Virus record (IMG/VR): IMGVR_UViG_3300006919_000374
Coordinates: 1 to 26,255 of that record
DNA from: a virus
Strand: one strand, 5' to 3'
Length of the DNA: 26,255 bases
Position 1 is the first letter of the stretch. The number at the start of each line of letters is the position of its first letter. Below, one piece after another: positions 12,909 through 18,286 of the stretch. The notes beneath the pieces are model-generated. The model ran no database searches. It saw nothing but the letters and a program-made list of their open reading frames with translations, and was not told the DNA's origin. The position numbers and the translations under genes are program-made.

Positions 12909-14464
12909 GTATGCGTCTCCTGCAATGTGAAGCTCTGAGGATCAAACAGCATAGTTCCTGCAGGGCCTTCTTCTGAACACGGACGGTTCTTCTCGACACG
13001 CAAGTAAGTGGTGTTACGGTCGGTGTCATCTTCAGCAAGCTTATCACGGCTCAAGTCGATAATCACAGAAGCACGTTGTCCGATCATACGACAGTACTTA
13101 GGGTCACCATTCTCGTTAGTGTGTGCGATGGTAACAATACCAATGTTAAGCTCTGCAGCTAGCTTAGAGAGCCTCACAGAGAGGTCAGCAAGCTGTTGTT
13201 CCTTACTCTCCTCACTGATGCCAACTACAGCATCTTGGATCGGTTCAAAGAACACATACTTACAGTCACACCCACTAGCCAAATACCTAATCTGGTCAAT
13301 GAAGTCGTCCGTGTTAGTGCCATCAGGCATGTAGAACTGGTAGAACTTCTCGCCCTTGGTGATCTTACGGATCGCATCCTCTACGATGTCGTGTACACCT
13401 AAAGCCTCGATGATATCACGGCGTGTCAGGTTCTGATTTAGCTCGTAGGAGACTAGCCCAAGTAAACTACGCAGTTTAGTTTCCTCTAGATGCCATGAGG
13501 CAAATGGGACTTCCTTCTTTATCATGTTGTACTCTAAGTAGCGCATGATCTCTGTCTTACCGATACCAGTCGGTGCTTTGATCACAGTGAAGTGACCTTG
13601 CATCAGTCCCATGATCTTATCATCGAGAGCTTCGATGCCTGTAGGTACATAAGCATAGTTCGGAGCCTCTCTGAAGAGTTCTACAAACTGGTCTGAGGTG
13701 TTTAGGATATTCTCTGGTGTATATTTCTTTGCATTCCACCACGCATTGGTGAAGTCTTTACCTGCATTGTCCTGAAGGAACTCATTAGCGTCCTTGTATT
13801 TGTCATGTGGGACACGGTAAGTCTTGTTCGGGAACATGTTGAATATCTTTTGTGCGATGGCGTTACCCGCAGCATCACTATCTACACTGAGAACAATCTT
13901 ATCGAAGCTATCTAACCACGGTTTACACTTCTCCCAGAGCCTCTTAGAGGGTGTAGCAGAGGGTAAAGACACCACAGGGTTAGTCCCCCTCACGTTAAGC
14001 ATTTGGTGCGCTGAGAGAGCGTCTAACTCGCCCTCAGTGATGGTTACGATGCTAGCTGACCCTGCAGGGAACAGGTTCATACCGAACAGCTCGTCTTGTG
14101 ACAAACCAGAAGCAGAGAATGTCTTCGGCATTACGCGGATTTTCTTACCCCCTGACGGATAAATATACTCCTGTTTGCTAAGTTCTCCATTTGCGTCTCG
14201 ATAACTACGAACATCGTAAAATTGCATAGTTTTTACCTGAATACCCCTAAGAGGTAGGTATTCGTGTGGTTCAGTAGCGGTAGGGTTGTCAAAAGCCATG
14301 CTGTTATCATCTCCCATAGGTCTCTTGAGTGGTTCATATTGATCGAAGAAGGACTGTGAGCAAGCGAAGCAGTAGCCTACACCCTTGTCGGTGTTAAAGG
14401 AGTACGCATCGCTGCTACCACAGTTCTCCTCATCGGGGCAGGTTAAGTGGGTTAGTTCTGGCAT
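12905..14464 (-). CDS. Primase-helicase (T7 gp4-like)
   Basis: A 519-aa bifunctional replication protein. I choose the ATG at 14464, with AAGGA just upstream; the longer frame begins with TTG. The zinc-binding domain has THLTCPDEENC and YCFACSQSF (C9, C15, C32, C35). The TOPRIM primase core shows ITEGELDALSAHQ (E144) and LSVDSDAAGNAIAQ (D195, D197). The RecA-like helicase domain has Walker A KAPTGIGKTE (K303, T304), ASWHLEE, the YVFFEPIQD Walker-B-like strand, IVTIAHTNEN and GQRASVIIDLSRDK. It would unwind the fork and prime the lagging strand. The 66-aa gene upstream overlaps it by 13 nt. The domain set is complete. Confidence 0.93.
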   Translation of the reverse strand: MPELTHLTCPDEENCGSSDAYSFNTDKGVGYCFACSQSFFDQYEPLKRPMGDDNSMAFDNPTATEPHEYLPLRGIQVKTMQFYDVRSYRDANGELSKQEYIYPSGGKKIRVMPKTFSASGLSQDELFGMNLFPAGSASIVTITEGELDALSAHQMLNVRGTNPVVSLPSATPSKRLWEKCKPWLDSFDKIVLSVDSDAAGNAIAQKIFNMFPNKTYRVPHDKYKDANEFLQDNAGKDFTNAWWNAKKYTPENILNTSDQFVELFREAPNYAYVPTGIEALDDKIMGLMQGHFTVIKAPTGIGKTEIMRYLEYNMIKKEVPFASWHLEETKLRSLLGLVSYELNQNLTRRDIIEALGVHDIVEDAIRKITKGEKFYQFYMPDGTNTDDFIDQIRYLASGCDCKYVFFEPIQDAVVGISEESKEQQLADLSVRLSKLAAELNIGIVTIAHTNENGDPKYCRMIGQRASVIIDLSRDKLAEDDTDRNTTYLRVEKNRPCSEEGPAGTMLFDPQSFTLQETHT

Positions 14465-14652
14465 ACTGTATCCTTCCAACCTTTGATGCGAAAGTACTGG
14501 CCTTCAGAGTAACCATCTACATACGCACCCTTCATGTCATCTCTTCTGCTCATGTAACATGCAGCGCGAGGCATACCATTGTACCCATCGTAATAACCTA
14601 CATCATAGGCTGCTTCGCACTGATCCATATAAAGGTCTTTCATTTTACCCAT
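14452..14652 (-). CDS. Hypothetical 66-aa protein, first gene of the replication operon
   Basis: A small protein (MGKMKDLYMDQCEAAYDVGYYDGYNGMPRAA...) rich in Tyr, Gly and Asp, with the repeat-like pattern GYYDGYNGMP and YVDGYSEGQYF, and a C-terminal FRIKGWKDT. CAGGAG lies 6 nt before the ATG. It is the first gene after the 379-bp non-coding leader and overlaps the primase-helicase by 13 nt. Pairs of YxxGYxxG motifs occur in small phage proteins of unknown function. No role can be assigned. Confidence 0.6.
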   Translation of the reverse strand: MGKMKDLYMDQCEAAYDVGYYDGYNGMPRAACYMSRRDDMKGAYVDGYSEGQYFRIKGWKDTVCQN

Positions 14653-14824: not shown

Positions 14825-14914
14825 TTTCTATCGGAGGCCTATTTCCATCGGAGGGCTTTCCACTGGAGGGCCTCGGTCAATTTCCCACGGAGGGCTATTT
14901 CCACTGGAGGCCTA
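14825..14914 (+). repeat. Five-copy TTTCCaytGGAGGgcct array
   Basis: Five imperfect ~17-bp units with the core YCCMWYGGAGGSCT (the GGAGG cores begin at about 14833, 14850, 14865, 14889 and 14906) stand in tandem. An 8-nt interruption sits after the third copy. The TTTCC(C/T)A core also recurs in the array at 17972-18166, so both belong to one repeat family. Confidence 0.7.
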
Positions 14915-14922
14915 TGTTAACA

Positions 14923-14983
14923 CTTAGCCTGGCCCTATGCCTGGCCCCTGGCTAAGCGCCTGGCCAGGATCTTGGCTAAGGCC
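14923..14983. repeat. CTGGC-rich repeat block, left copy
   Basis: Within 61 bp CCTGG occurs four times and CCAGG once, with the palindrome CCTGGCCAGG at 14959-14968 and interspersed TTGGCTAAGGCC. The same vocabulary fills the block at 17928-18166 on the other side of the leftward cassette. Confidence 0.65.
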
Positions 14984-15018
14984 AAAGAAAAACCCTAAGC
15001 TAAATCAATAGCTTAGGG
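14984..15018 (-). terminator. Rho-independent terminator of the leftward peptidase cassette
   Basis: In the leftward transcript a perfect 9-bp stem (CCCTAAGCT / AGCTTAGGG) with an 8-nt loop is followed directly by TTTTTCTTT. It lies 13 nt after the stop codon of the 75-aa gene, so the cassette forms its own transcription unit. Confidence 0.85.
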
Positions 15019-15031
15019 CATAGCTTTGAAG

Positions 15032-15259
15032 TTAGTTAATGCTGACGATTGGATTTACGTTAGCTTCTAAGTTCATTTCCTCGCTATTGAGTAAGGTTAG
15101 AAACTCGCATAGCTCGTCCATTTTGTCGATTTCTTTGGTCAACATCTCGAACGCGCTTTCGTCTCGACCTATCGCCCAGAACGTAGCGATAATCTTGAGA
15201 CGCCCGCTAATGCGGTACGCCTCCTCTTGTGCTGCTGATTTCTCTTGAGCTAATTTCAT
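15032..15259 (-). CDS. Hypothetical 75-aa helical protein, last gene of the cassette
   Basis: A small, predicted mainly alpha-helical protein (QEKSAAQEEAYRISGRLKIIATFWAIG, then MLTKEIDKMDELCEFLTLLNSEEM). GGGAG precedes the ATG and the gene begins 2 nt after the peptidase stop codon. It is the last gene before the terminator. Heptad-like leucines and charges suggest a coiled coil or small helical bundle, possibly a partner of the upstream proteins. No family recognised. Confidence 0.6.
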   Translation of the reverse strand: MKLAQEKSAAQEEAYRISGRLKIIATFWAIGRDESAFEMLTKEIDKMDELCEFLTLLNSEEMNLEANVNPIVSIN

Positions 15260-15261
15260 AG

Positions 15262-16221
15262 TTACAGTCTCCCGTATTTGTTAAGGTTAATCTGCGCACC
15301 GTATGCATAGAGATCTTCTTCCAGTGCGTCCGTAGTTTTCCAGTAATCTGCAAGCAGTCGGGCTAAGGCCTCGGGATGCTCGCAGATGACCTCATAGAAG
15401 TCGGCTACAGCATCTTCTCCCACCACGGGGTCGGTGTGTCCGCTGGGCGTTCCTCGTAAGGGATACCCCCAGTGGTCATCCCAGTGATACTCTAAGATCG
15501 CAGGATCTCTTGCTATCACTAGCTTTGACCAGTCGGCGGATATAAGAGCGTCTCTAAGCTGCGCCACATAGTTTAAGTCTTGGGTTTCTTTGGCGGTGTG
15601 CTGCGAGTAGTAACCAACCGATAGGTTCGTACACTCTGGGATAATGTGAGCGTACTCATTACTATCTGTGTAACTACCAGTAGGGTCTGGCTCGTGATCC
15701 ATTCCTAGAATACTGGCAAGAGACTTGGCAAAGGCATCACTAGCTGTTCTGCACCCCGTCTGATGGGTTATAATATCGCTAGTACCCTTGCGGTCGAAGC
15801 TAATGACTGCATTCACACTAGCTAACCACCAAGGATTATCATCCACTAGCGCCTTAGAGCCAATACAGCCAGTTTCTTCTTCGGCATGGACTACATAGAC
15901 GCCCTCGATACCTGCATCGATCATTTCTAAGATCAACCAGATACCTGTCGCACAGTCTGCGCCCAGACAGTTAGACTTGGAACCGTTAGCTAAGCTGACA
16001 ATACCGTCATTGATCTGGATATTCTGCATACCACCATTGCTGTGGACGCTATCGTAATGTGCAGCGTAGCAGACGCTTGGGTTATCGCCTATGACTAGCT
16101 CATAGTTACCATTCTTGTCTGGATACCCGAAGGTCGGGTGTAGAAAACGGCTACAGAAATCCTTGATGGACTCGGTGCCATGCTTGCGCTTATATTTAAG
16201 CATTGACGTCAGGCTATGCAC
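15262..16221 (-). CDS. Di-zinc aminopeptidase-like enzyme (M28/M20/M42 clan MH)
   Basis: A 319-aa protein with all five metal-ligand motifs of clan MH peptidases in order. They are AAHYDSVH (H55, D57), LGADCATGIW (D89, bridging), HAEEETGCIGS (E114 base and E115 ligand), ISFDRKGTSD (D143) and GYYSQHTAKE (H208). A C-terminal extension of about 100 residues (LEYHWDDHWGYPLRGTPSG and helices) has no recognised motif. There is no signal peptide, so it probably acts in the cytoplasm on peptides or amino-acylated substrates. The start is a GTG with GGAGGG 6 nt upstream, overlapping the Cys-rich gene by 13 nt. Such enzymes are uncommon in phages. Activity is inferred from complete ligands; substrate unknown. 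Confidence 0.78.
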   Translation of the reverse strand: MHSLTSMLKYKRKHGTESIKDFCSRFLHPTFGYPDKNGNYELVIGDNPSVCYAAHYDSVHSNGGMQNIQINDGIVSLANGSKSNCLGADCATGIWLILEMIDAGIEGVYVVHAEEETGCIGSKALVDDNPWWLASVNAVISFDRKGTSDIITHQTGCRTASDAFAKSLASILGMDHEPDPTGSYTDSNEYAHIIPECTNLSVGYYSQHTAKETQDLNYVAQLRDALISADWSKLVIARDPAILEYHWDDHWGYPLRGTPSGHTDPVVGEDAVADFYEVICEHPEALARLLADYWKTTDALEEDLYAYGAQINLNKYGRL

Positions 16222-17642
16222 TGCTCGCCCTCCTCTTTCTTACGTTGTGATGACCACTCACCAGTTAGTTCATTCTGAACATACTCATATATGCGGTCAC
16301 TCTTGTTAAACGCTTGGATCTGCTCCAAGGTTGTCAGTTCGCCATCTTCTAAGACCTGAGCCTCATCGTTGTGATAGATGCCATCGCTTAGCCAACAGGT
16401 AAAGTATTCGTTGTCATACTGATCTGCGGAGATATCTTCACCATCCGCCGTAGTATAAACATACTCCTGATACCATAGCTGTCCATCGGTACACTCAATA
16501 GCGTATTCGTCTGCATAGTATGAGTCCCAATACTGAACTACGGTATTACCGTTCCAGTGACGGCTATATACTTCCCTAGCATCGCACTCAGGATAATACT
16601 CATCTGAATACTCGCATCTGAAGTATCTACTCTCAAGACAGCTCGGACATATGGCTCTATCACAGACGTGAGTTACGTCCATTTCATGGATACTGTCTGA
16701 GCAATCTTCGCAGAAGTAACACTCGCCATCTCTTAAGATGCCGCCGTAGTTACTACCGTCGATAGTGCCACATTCGTCAACTACGAGATAATCTCCCCAG
16801 ACACGTAAGGCACGAGGCTCCAGATCAAGGTAAGGTGCTAACCACCCACCATCATAAGGATCAGCAACTAAGCAAGCACCAGTCCATGATGCACTATCTG
16901 CTCTCCTAGCTCCCATCAGATAGAGCTGATCGTTAAGCATTTCATAGGCTGCTTCTGATACGCAGTAGATAGGCGCTGCCTGAGGAATCTCTGGCTTAGT
17001 CCACACGACACACCGACCAGCGATCTGTCCTGAGGGAGTTTCTAACCAGAGTATCGTAAACTCACCAGACGCATAAGCTTCTACAGGATGCTTAGGTAAT
17101 GAGTCAAACGAGTACCGCATACAGCTATTGGCCATATGTTTCTTAGACCAAGACGTATCTACATTCTCATAATCGGCTTGCTCATAAGAGTAGGCTTTTC
17201 TAAATGAGGCTGCATCTTGGCCAGTCTTTAAGGTAAAGTCTTTGGCTAATAGCTTAGCTTTTACCTCATCGACCATTTTGTCGATCTCACTATCGGTTAG
17301 CACTGGGAACATACGTCTAATCGCACGCCCAATCCGCATAGCTTGGCGACCATTACGGCCTTTAGACCTAGCATTGGCATCTGGCCAAATGTATAGGCTA
17401 TTAGGCTCATTACGATCTACGTTAGGTCTATAGAAATCTATGACCTGTTTGATCTTATTGTTTTGCTCCATGTGATAGCTATTGAGAATAGTACCTTCGA
17501 TACCTCGAATATCCCCTATACCTGTCACTAGGATATCATACACGCGAGTTTCTATGAACTTGCCTGCACGACGAGACAGGCCTTCATTACTAAGCTCATC
17601 GCTTAGCTCAAGACCTGCGAGAGATTTTCCAAAGTCTCTCAT
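16209..17642 (-). CDS. Cys-rich protein of unknown function with zinc-finger-like domain
   Basis: A 477-aa protein, first gene of the cassette. AGGAGGT lies 4 nt before the ATG. The N-terminal third is basic and helical (KGRNGRQAMRIGRAIRRMFPVLTDSEIDKMV). A middle beta-rich domain (about 165-300) has the sequence HMANSCMRYSFDSLPKHPVEAY followed by EFTILWLETPSGQIAGRCVVW. Residues 308-353 form a Cys-rich region (C308, C311, C314, C327, C332, C335, C343, C353) in CxxCxxC and CxxC pairs, resembling tandem treble-clef or LIM-like zinc knuckles. The acidic, Tyr/Trp-rich C-terminal part repeats an xYWDSYYADEYA-type unit. I recall similar uncharacterised phage proteins but no function. It is co-transcribed and overlaps with the peptidase gene. 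Confidence 0.7.
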   Translation of the reverse strand: MRDFGKSLAGLELSDELSNEGLSRRAGKFIETRVYDILVTGIGDIRGIEGTILNSYHMEQNNKIKQVIDFYRPNVDRNEPNSLYIWPDANARSKGRNGRQAMRIGRAIRRMFPVLTDSEIDKMVDEVKAKLLAKDFTLKTGQDAASFRKAYSYEQADYENVDTSWSKKHMANSCMRYSFDSLPKHPVEAYASGEFTILWLETPSGQIAGRCVVWTKPEIPQAAPIYCVSEAAYEMLNDQLYLMGARRADSASWTGACLVADPYDGGWLAPYLDLEPRALRVWGDYLVVDECGTIDGSNYGGILRDGECYFCEDCSDSIHEMDVTHVCDRAICPSCLESRYFRCEYSDEYYPECDAREVYSRHWNGNTVVQYWDSYYADEYAIECTDGQLWYQEYVYTTADGEDISADQYDNEYFTCWLSDGIYHNDEAQVLEDGELTTLEQIQAFNKSDRIYEYVQNELTGEWSSQRKKEEGEQCIA

Positions 17643-17739
17643 AGTTACCTCCTAAGTAACGGTTAAAGTTTACAGCTTACGCTGCGGCTAAGATACAGGC
17701 TAAGGAACGAATCAGTGGACGCACCTATCCTGTGCTTAT

Positions 17740-17768
17740 ACTATAGCATTTCTAGGGGTAAGGGTCAA
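17740..17768 (-). promoter_or_regulatory. Sigma70-like promoter of the leftward peptidase cassette
   Basis: On the minus strand TTGACC (-35, 17763-17768) stands 17 nt from TATAGT (-10, 17740-17745); each box matches consensus at 5 of 6 positions and the spacing is optimal. The first gene starts about 90 nt downstream with a strong AGGAGGT. Confidence 0.75.
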
Positions 17769-17801: not shown

Positions 17802-17917
17802 TTGTGATCACGTTTGTAGTACCTGAGAATAACTACAATACAATCAAGTACTTACACCCACTGCGTACAACTAATTTGTGATCACAGTTCCTGTGCAGGG
17901 GGATTTCTTGTGATCAC
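17802..17917. promoter_or_regulatory. Three TTGTGATCAC palindromic sites
   Basis: TTGTGATCAC occurs at 17802-17811, 17876-17885 and 17908-17917, each centred on the perfect palindrome GTGATCAC; the second and third extend to TGTGATCACA. They lie just upstream of the cassette promoter. The half-sites look like those of CRP but lack the 6-nt spacer, so a different regulator is more likely. Confidence 0.55.
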
Positions 17918-17971
17918 ATATGGGCAGCCAGGCCTGGCGCTGAGCTAAGGAAATACCTTAAACCTTCGATC

Positions 17972-18166
17972 ATTTCCCATCCGGGGTCCTGGCTTAGGGC
18001 TTAGCCTGGCGCCTGGCTTAATTCCTATCCGGGGTCCTGGCCTGGGGCTTAACCTGGCCCTTAGGTTATTTCCTATCCGGGGTCTTAGCCTGGGGCCTGG
18101 CCAGGGGCCTGGCTTAGGTCATTTCCCATCGGGGGGTCTAGGGCCTGGCCTGGGGCTTAACCTGGC
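17972..18166. repeat. Four-copy ~50-bp GC-rich minisatellite
   Basis: Units begin with ATTTCC(C/T)ATCCGGGG or close variants at 17972, 18021, 18068 and 18121 (spacing 49, 47 and 53 bp). Each continues into a variable CCTGGC/TTAGGGCTTA/CTTAACCTGG tail. More than a dozen CCTGG words and the palindrome CCTGGCCAGG (about 18097-18106) make it very prone to secondary structure. Related sequences precede it at 17928-17950. Confidence 0.8.
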
Positions 18167-18286
18167 GGTATACAATGGTATGCAATAAGCGGTATGCAAT
18201 GGTATACAATAAGCGGTATGCAATGGTATACATTAATTGGTATACTATGGTATGCACTAAACTGTATGCTATGGTATACACTAAGC
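18167..18286. repeat. Iteron array: five tandem 24-bp units
   Basis: Five abutting 24-bp units (starting at 18167, 18191, 18215, 18239, 18263) each contain two GGTATRC boxes, spaced 10 and then 14 nt to the next unit, so ten boxes in all. Every unit holds exactly one palindromic GTATAC and one GTATGC, in variable order, and most end in a TAAGC-like trailer. Unit 5 begins TGTATGC. No spacers of CRISPR type. This is the architecture of initiator-binding iterons or of a cooperative repressor array. Confidence 0.9.

Follow-up and report, generated by a model that had tools for sequence, protein, structure and literature searches.

The peptidase gene studied here has been annotated in hundreds of phage genomes, while the gene beside it has been left as a 'hypothetical protein'. 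The locus raises the question of whether the two genes act together and, if so, what they may do. In the present study, we analysed a stretch of 26,255 nucleotides of viral DNA (IMG/VR record IMGVR_UViG_3300006919_000374), called here the window. It covers part of a marine phage genome that is Roseobacter-phage-like, its primase and terminase being closest to those of phage CRP-6 (62% and 69%). An initial annotation had proposed an autonomous cassette with its own promoter, start signals and terminator, holding two overlapping large genes and a third small gene, and this layout was borne out. The cassette runs on the minus strand from 17768 to 14992, in the order promoter, 477-aa gene (hereafter the partner), 319-aa peptidase gene, 75-aa gene and terminator. 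The features are as follows:

17740..17768, minus strand: sigma-70-like promoter TTGACC-17-TATAGT with TG before the -10 element (extended -10), matching the consensus at 10 of 12 positions
16209..17642, minus strand: partner gene ('SCM family', defined below), 477 aa, ATG start, SD TTAGGAGG; from the open reading frame, alignments and model
15262..16221, minus strand: clan MH di-metal peptidase gene, 319 aa, GTG start; from phrog_4191 and Pfam M28
15032..15259, minus strand: small gene, 75 aa, with relatives in closely related viruses only
14992..15019, minus strand: intrinsic terminator, an 11-pair stem followed by a T-rich tail; from the sequence
17802..17919, unstranded: palindrome TTGTGATCACA in three copies (17802, 17876, 17908) upstream of the promoter, a candidate operator; from a repeat search

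The promoter ranks first among 13 matches in the region. It is identical in a close relative (L004), which adds little because the whole stretch is about 96% identical there, and two of the three palindromes are retained in the same relative. The peptidase start lies inside the partner gene, with an overlap of 13 bases and its own SD (GGAGG) within that gene. The 75-aa gene, which has relatives in close viruses only, is outside the broadly conserved core. In addition, CCTGGC/GCCAGG-type motifs flank the cassette, with 5 sites at 14928-14968, 18 sites at 17927-18166 and just one further occurrence in the rest of the window, and these clusters look like module-boundary linkers. Five copies of 13-mers like TTTCCACTGGAGG were found at 14825-14910 in the linker beyond the terminator, and 24-base units (GGTATGCAATGGTATACAATAAGC) form a tandem array at 18143-18286 that is possibly an origin or a regulator site. 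A 66-aa protein encoded at 14452-14652 on the minus strand is conserved in L005 and L010; in Pfam it matches ribosome modulation factor weakly (E 0.0055), and it is possibly a phage ribosome-hibernation factor.

The window peptidase is of an already known kind and belongs to clan MH (M28-like). It reached 29.9 bits against Pfam M28 (PF04389; curated cut-off 21.3, E 6e-7), and the phrog_4191 'peptidase' HMM matched residues 2-258 with an E of 6.3e-83. The initial annotation had described a complete set of clan MH ligands, and all of them hold: H55, D57, D89, E115, E116, D143 and H208 are invariant in two alignments covering 29 close and 10 diverse homologues. Its numbering needs correction, the catalytic Glu and the following ligand being E115/E116 and not E114/E115. 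Furthermore, the AlphaFold2 model (pLDDT 87.6) gave 165 matches in the PDB at E <= 0.001, and all of the top matches listed are clan MH enzymes. PepT was matched with an E of 1.4e-9, and TET/M42 and M28 aminopeptidases were also matched. The PepT alignment agrees with the window peptidase around H55/D57, D89, E115/E116 and H208, and its span excludes D143. By sequence and modelled fold, the peptidase is predicted to be intact, with a putative metal site that rests on alignment and fold together. The earlier view that clan MH peptidases are rare as phage proteins has to be given up, since 375 phage records encode this peptidase, as do at least 592 stretches of viral contigs, the named phages being chiefly Klebsiella, Pectobacterium and Vibrio Autographiviridae. 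In Pseudomonas phage C171 (L213 5966-6768), the annotation divides the peptidase into two short genes in a row, which suggests a split, broken or mis-sequenced copy.

Among the peptidase loci of IMG/VR, a set picked by similarity to the window peptidase, the partner was adjacent on the same strand in 65 and within 2 kb in 9 more, and none of those with enough flank was without it. In bacterial genome contigs, which like the named-phage set are more distant, the partner was adjacent in 31 and near in 2; the seven genome-contig peptidases without a partner were all short (236-286 aa) and of a separate type. The initial annotation had taken the two large genes as a unit, with rare neighbourhood in relatives as the contrary case. 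What was found is adjacency in unrelated elements, with the partner adjacent or near in 32 of the 38 testable peptidase clusters (60% identity, enough flank). Chance or purely lineage-specific adjacency was ruled out by the locus survey and these clusters. The adjacent genes mostly overlap or abut (79 pairs overlap and 25 have a gap), and the survey of peptidase loci found no fusion of the two. The order is reversed, with the peptidase first, in Cellulophaga phage phi38:1 and in a Lak phage, so whatever created or preserved the pairing did not depend on gene order. Record counts for the peptidase and the VP93-type partner were 42/42 in Vibrio, 10/10 in Escherichia, 4/4 in Shigella and 230/231 in Klebsiella phages. 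In addition, the distances among partners follow those among peptidases (r = 0.94; partial r = 0.88 given primase; Mantel p = 0.001). Partner paralogues with no adjacent peptidase occur in Lak phages and in L154, L155 and L157; Lak phage LR745206 has eight partner copies and five peptidases. One viral contig (L155 1-3964) carries 4 or 5 partner-family genes in tandem, with no peptidase in that stretch. Overall, a joint function of the partner and the peptidase is well supported, and we infer its chemistry and target below.

The window partner had no significant match in Pfam, PHROG or NCBIfam. Partners were first located by position, in Rhizobium phage Pasto, Bradyrhizobium phage BDU-MI-1, Peat1, KpV74 and VP93, and their alignment gave a common core of S-C-M, Y, R, Y and PYxD. 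The SCM family is defined here by this core (S-C-M, Y190, R210, Y226, PYxD) and comprises 129 sequences, among them the window partner with S173, C174, M175, Y190, R210, Y226, P270, Y271 and D273. In about 125 aligned cores of the 129, residues S173, C174, Y190, Y226 and D273 are 100% conserved where aligned, R210 is kept in 96% and P270/Y271 in 98%. No stretch of 7-10 residues in the family is conserved enough for profile scans of collections. The window-centred branch and the branch centred on Lak and Cellulophaga phages are related with a probability of 99% in hhalign. The window partner consists of a helical N-terminal part, the core (about 137-290) and LIM/treble-clef-like C-terminal repeats (about 308-456). 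The paired CxxC knuckles noted in the initial annotation were confirmed as C311/C314 and C332/C335, which are nearly invariant, and there is an additional C308xxC311. The C-terminal part differs by type, with four-Cys LIM-like repeats in the window type and DnaJ-like CxxCxG repeats in some Lak copies. Its four-Cys spacing and repeat topology are LIM-like; in Pfam the LIM matches were weak and not significant, and were seen in 7 of 38 members (best E 0.0069). A few database records label the partner 'putative structural protein'. No paper was found that treats the peptidase and its neighbour as one unit, and, in the databases and papers searched, neither the family of partners nor the way it is strictly paired with the peptidase appears to have been described.

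These features bear on another explanation, namely peptide scavenging. Here the peptidase would break down short peptides derived from proteins of the host as a supply for phage synthesis, and the partner, a zinc-binding adaptor, would deliver or present these peptides and carry out no covalent chemistry itself. The nearest solved folds of the peptidase are indeed tripeptidases and housekeeping aminopeptidases, and a C-terminus that varies from LIM-like in the window to DnaJ-like CxxCxG in Lak is what adaptors have. However, the invariant C, Y, R, Y and D of about 125 partner cores point to an active or ligand site more than to an adaptor, and conjugative plasmids have no obvious need for scavenging. 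We consider this explanation unlikely.

The AlphaFold model of the partner has a mean pLDDT of 89.7 and a pTM of 0.50, so its domains are confident and their mutual arrangement is not. The predicted order of the core is beta1-alpha1-(alpha2)-beta2-beta3-beta4-alpha3-beta5, which fits a GNAT domain. When the model was compared with the PDB by Foldseek, no match reached E 0.001; the top 50 were nearly all GNAT acetyltransferases, FemX aminoacyl transferases or an aminoacyl-lipid synthase, the best with E 0.014 and a probability of 0.96, with TM-scores mostly of 0.1-0.35 and an RMSD often above 5 A. The partner had no match to a Pfam acetyltransferase. In hhalign, the SCM profile showed no similarity to the PF00583 or PF13480 sets, a comparison that is uninformative on GNAT ancestry because the control between two GNAT families failed too. 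When the alignment was read by eye, the acetyl-CoA loop Q/RxxGxG/A was not seen before alpha3, where the loop is PIYGVSE or similar and not glycine-rich. Because of the low scores, the uninformative profiles and the lack of a visible glycine-rich CoA loop, we term the partner GNAT-like and not a GNAT; the weak Foldseek matches suggest a core of GNAT-like topology. Viral models (BFVD) gave relatives among uncharacterised proteins of phages and, over about 119 columns, a single partial match to a phage 'amidoligase'. This link was not upheld, as Amidoligase_2 (PF12224) exceeded its cut-off in 0 of 20 records, several of them fragments.

The pair is present in Autographiviridae, marine podoviruses, Cellulophaga phages, Lak megaphages, phage-plasmid-like replicons and a conjugative plasmid. 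In Autographiviridae it precedes the primase, and in Phimunavirus it is among the conserved early genes, where a function had previously been given to the peptidase only (PMC6115819). In the window lineage the pair is accessory, because the closest cultured phages CRP-6, CRP-5 and ICBM2 have no peptidase match and, in their annotated early regions, the small genes are followed immediately by the primase. The initial annotation had expected an early, host-directed role, and an early or accessory location is supported. In phage Pasto, an ArdA-like antirestriction gene precedes the pair. On the conjugative plasmid pMC4 of Sphingopyxis, ParB and toprim genes flank the pair and HEPN and Abi genes are close by, and among loci like pMC4 there are ParB-like genes in eight and primase-like genes in eight. 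A tyrosine integrase gene family follows the pair in 36 viral loci, mostly directly. The Methylobacterium plasmid pVL1_2 (L209) combines, on a single replicon, three partner genes with two peptidases and with a short glutamyl-tRNA-synthetase-like gene; its partners are similar to those found in the large Bradyrhizobium phage BDU-MI-1, and the replicon is perhaps a phage-plasmid.

Two further explanations can be weighed against these contexts. Carriage on phages, prophages and plasmids, the HEPN and Abi genes beside the pair on pMC4, the neighbouring integrase and the overlap of just two genes would all suit a defence or exclusion module, which blocks competing elements like an abortive-infection or toxin-antitoxin pair. 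Against such a module, the genes are core early genes in lytic Autographiviridae (the Phimunavirus early core, PMC6115819), and both are nearly always kept together. Membership of a known defence family was rejected, as eight proteins of the pair and its relatives gave zero matches to the PADLOC HMMs, a library of defence models that holds no anti-defence models. The main text of a paper on anti-defence genes of plasmid leading regions (PMC11541004) makes no mention of this peptidase or its plasmid neighbours. We regard a defence module as distinctly improbable. The other explanation is an accessory role in the virion or in replication, the pair processing a phage protein such as primase or a virion precursor. 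The pair is usually just upstream of primase/helicase and polymerase genes, and the 'putative structural protein' label also points this way; on the other hand, the conjugative plasmid carries the pair without nearby virion genes, and the pair accompanies unrelated replication systems. Moreover, clan MH enzymes are known as exopeptidases and not as maturation endopeptidases. An accessory role of this kind seems very doubtful.

The reading that we favour, tentatively and at somewhat below an even chance, is a widespread two-gene unit of an SCM protein and a clan MH peptidase, in which the partner recognises or acylates a target and the peptidase trims it or reverses the modification, for early host takeover or counter-defence. 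The pair would be expressed early from its own promoter. The core of the partner may be a GNAT-like catalytic or ligand-binding domain with a putative active site of C174, Y190, R210, Y226 and D273. The C-terminal zinc-binding repeats of the partner, which are variable, may select the target, a protein or peptide that the partner would acylate or aminoacylate. The peptidase would then work on the same target, either by trimming its N-terminus or by reversing the acyl or aminoacyl modification, and the purpose may be early takeover of the host or the neutralising of a host defence component. The weak GNAT-like match and the neighbours in Pasto and pMC4 fit the roles put forward in the initial annotation, such as removal of a peptide tag, aminoacyl chemistry or counter-defence, and do not prove them. 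FemX-like GNAT enzymes use aminoacyl-tRNA for peptide ligation (PMC2922099), and the phage protein Rac triggers cleavage of host RNA polymerase alpha (PMC7552054); therefore, both kinds of chemistry exist in nature, although the partner had no homology to FemX-like GNATs or to Rac by any test here. A bolder version of the two-gene reading, which we hold to be a long shot, is that SCM proteins are a new branch of acetyltransferase-fold enzymes. Their zinc repeats would choose host proteins, onto which the SCM protein would transfer an amino acid, a peptide or an acyl group that the M28 peptidase then removes or edits. This would be a reversible protein-tagging system of phages and plasmids, and in Lak megaphages it would have expanded to several copies of the partner.

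Compared with the initial annotation, the case for linkage is now stronger, whereas the cases for rarity and function are weaker. Since the two genes stay linked in phages that are not related to one another, in phage-plasmid-like replicons and on a conjugative plasmid, they are predicted to share a useful function, which is directly testable in phages that can be cultured. Should the partner prove to be an enzyme of acetyltransferase fold, the pair would represent a new chemistry of host takeover or counter-defence.

The Autographiviridae peptidases of phrog_4191 and Pfam M28 (PF04389) are among the closest known systems. The window peptidase is a clear member and shares with them the early position before the primase and the upstream partner, but it is less than 50% identical to the versions of cultured phages, and its cassette, set in a Roseobacter-phage-like genome, has a promoter and a terminator of its own. 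The PepT-like tripeptidase (3gb0), TET/M42 and M28 aminopeptidases have in common with it the clan MH catalytic core and all metal ligands, whereas the window enzyme, of 319 aa, is only 14% identical over the fold alignment. On the partner side, phrog_13313 and phrog_6980, which have no function assigned, hold the Pectobacterium-phage partner and, weakly, other partners. These share the SCM core with the window partner, which itself scores in neither. The strand and helix order predicted for the partner core is like that of GNAT acyltransferases and FemX/L-PGS aminoacyl transferases, which make up nearly all of its top PDB matches, but the partner differs from them in its weak scores, its lack of sequence similarity and of a visible CoA loop, and its extra invariant SCM and PYxD motifs. 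Rac, a GNAT of phiKMV-like phages, is a different gene, located downstream of the phage RNA polymerase, with an acetyl-CoA pocket and a reliance on host proteases (PMC7552054); it nevertheless gives a precedent for a phage protein of acetyltransferase fold that is tied to proteolysis of a host target (PMC7552054).
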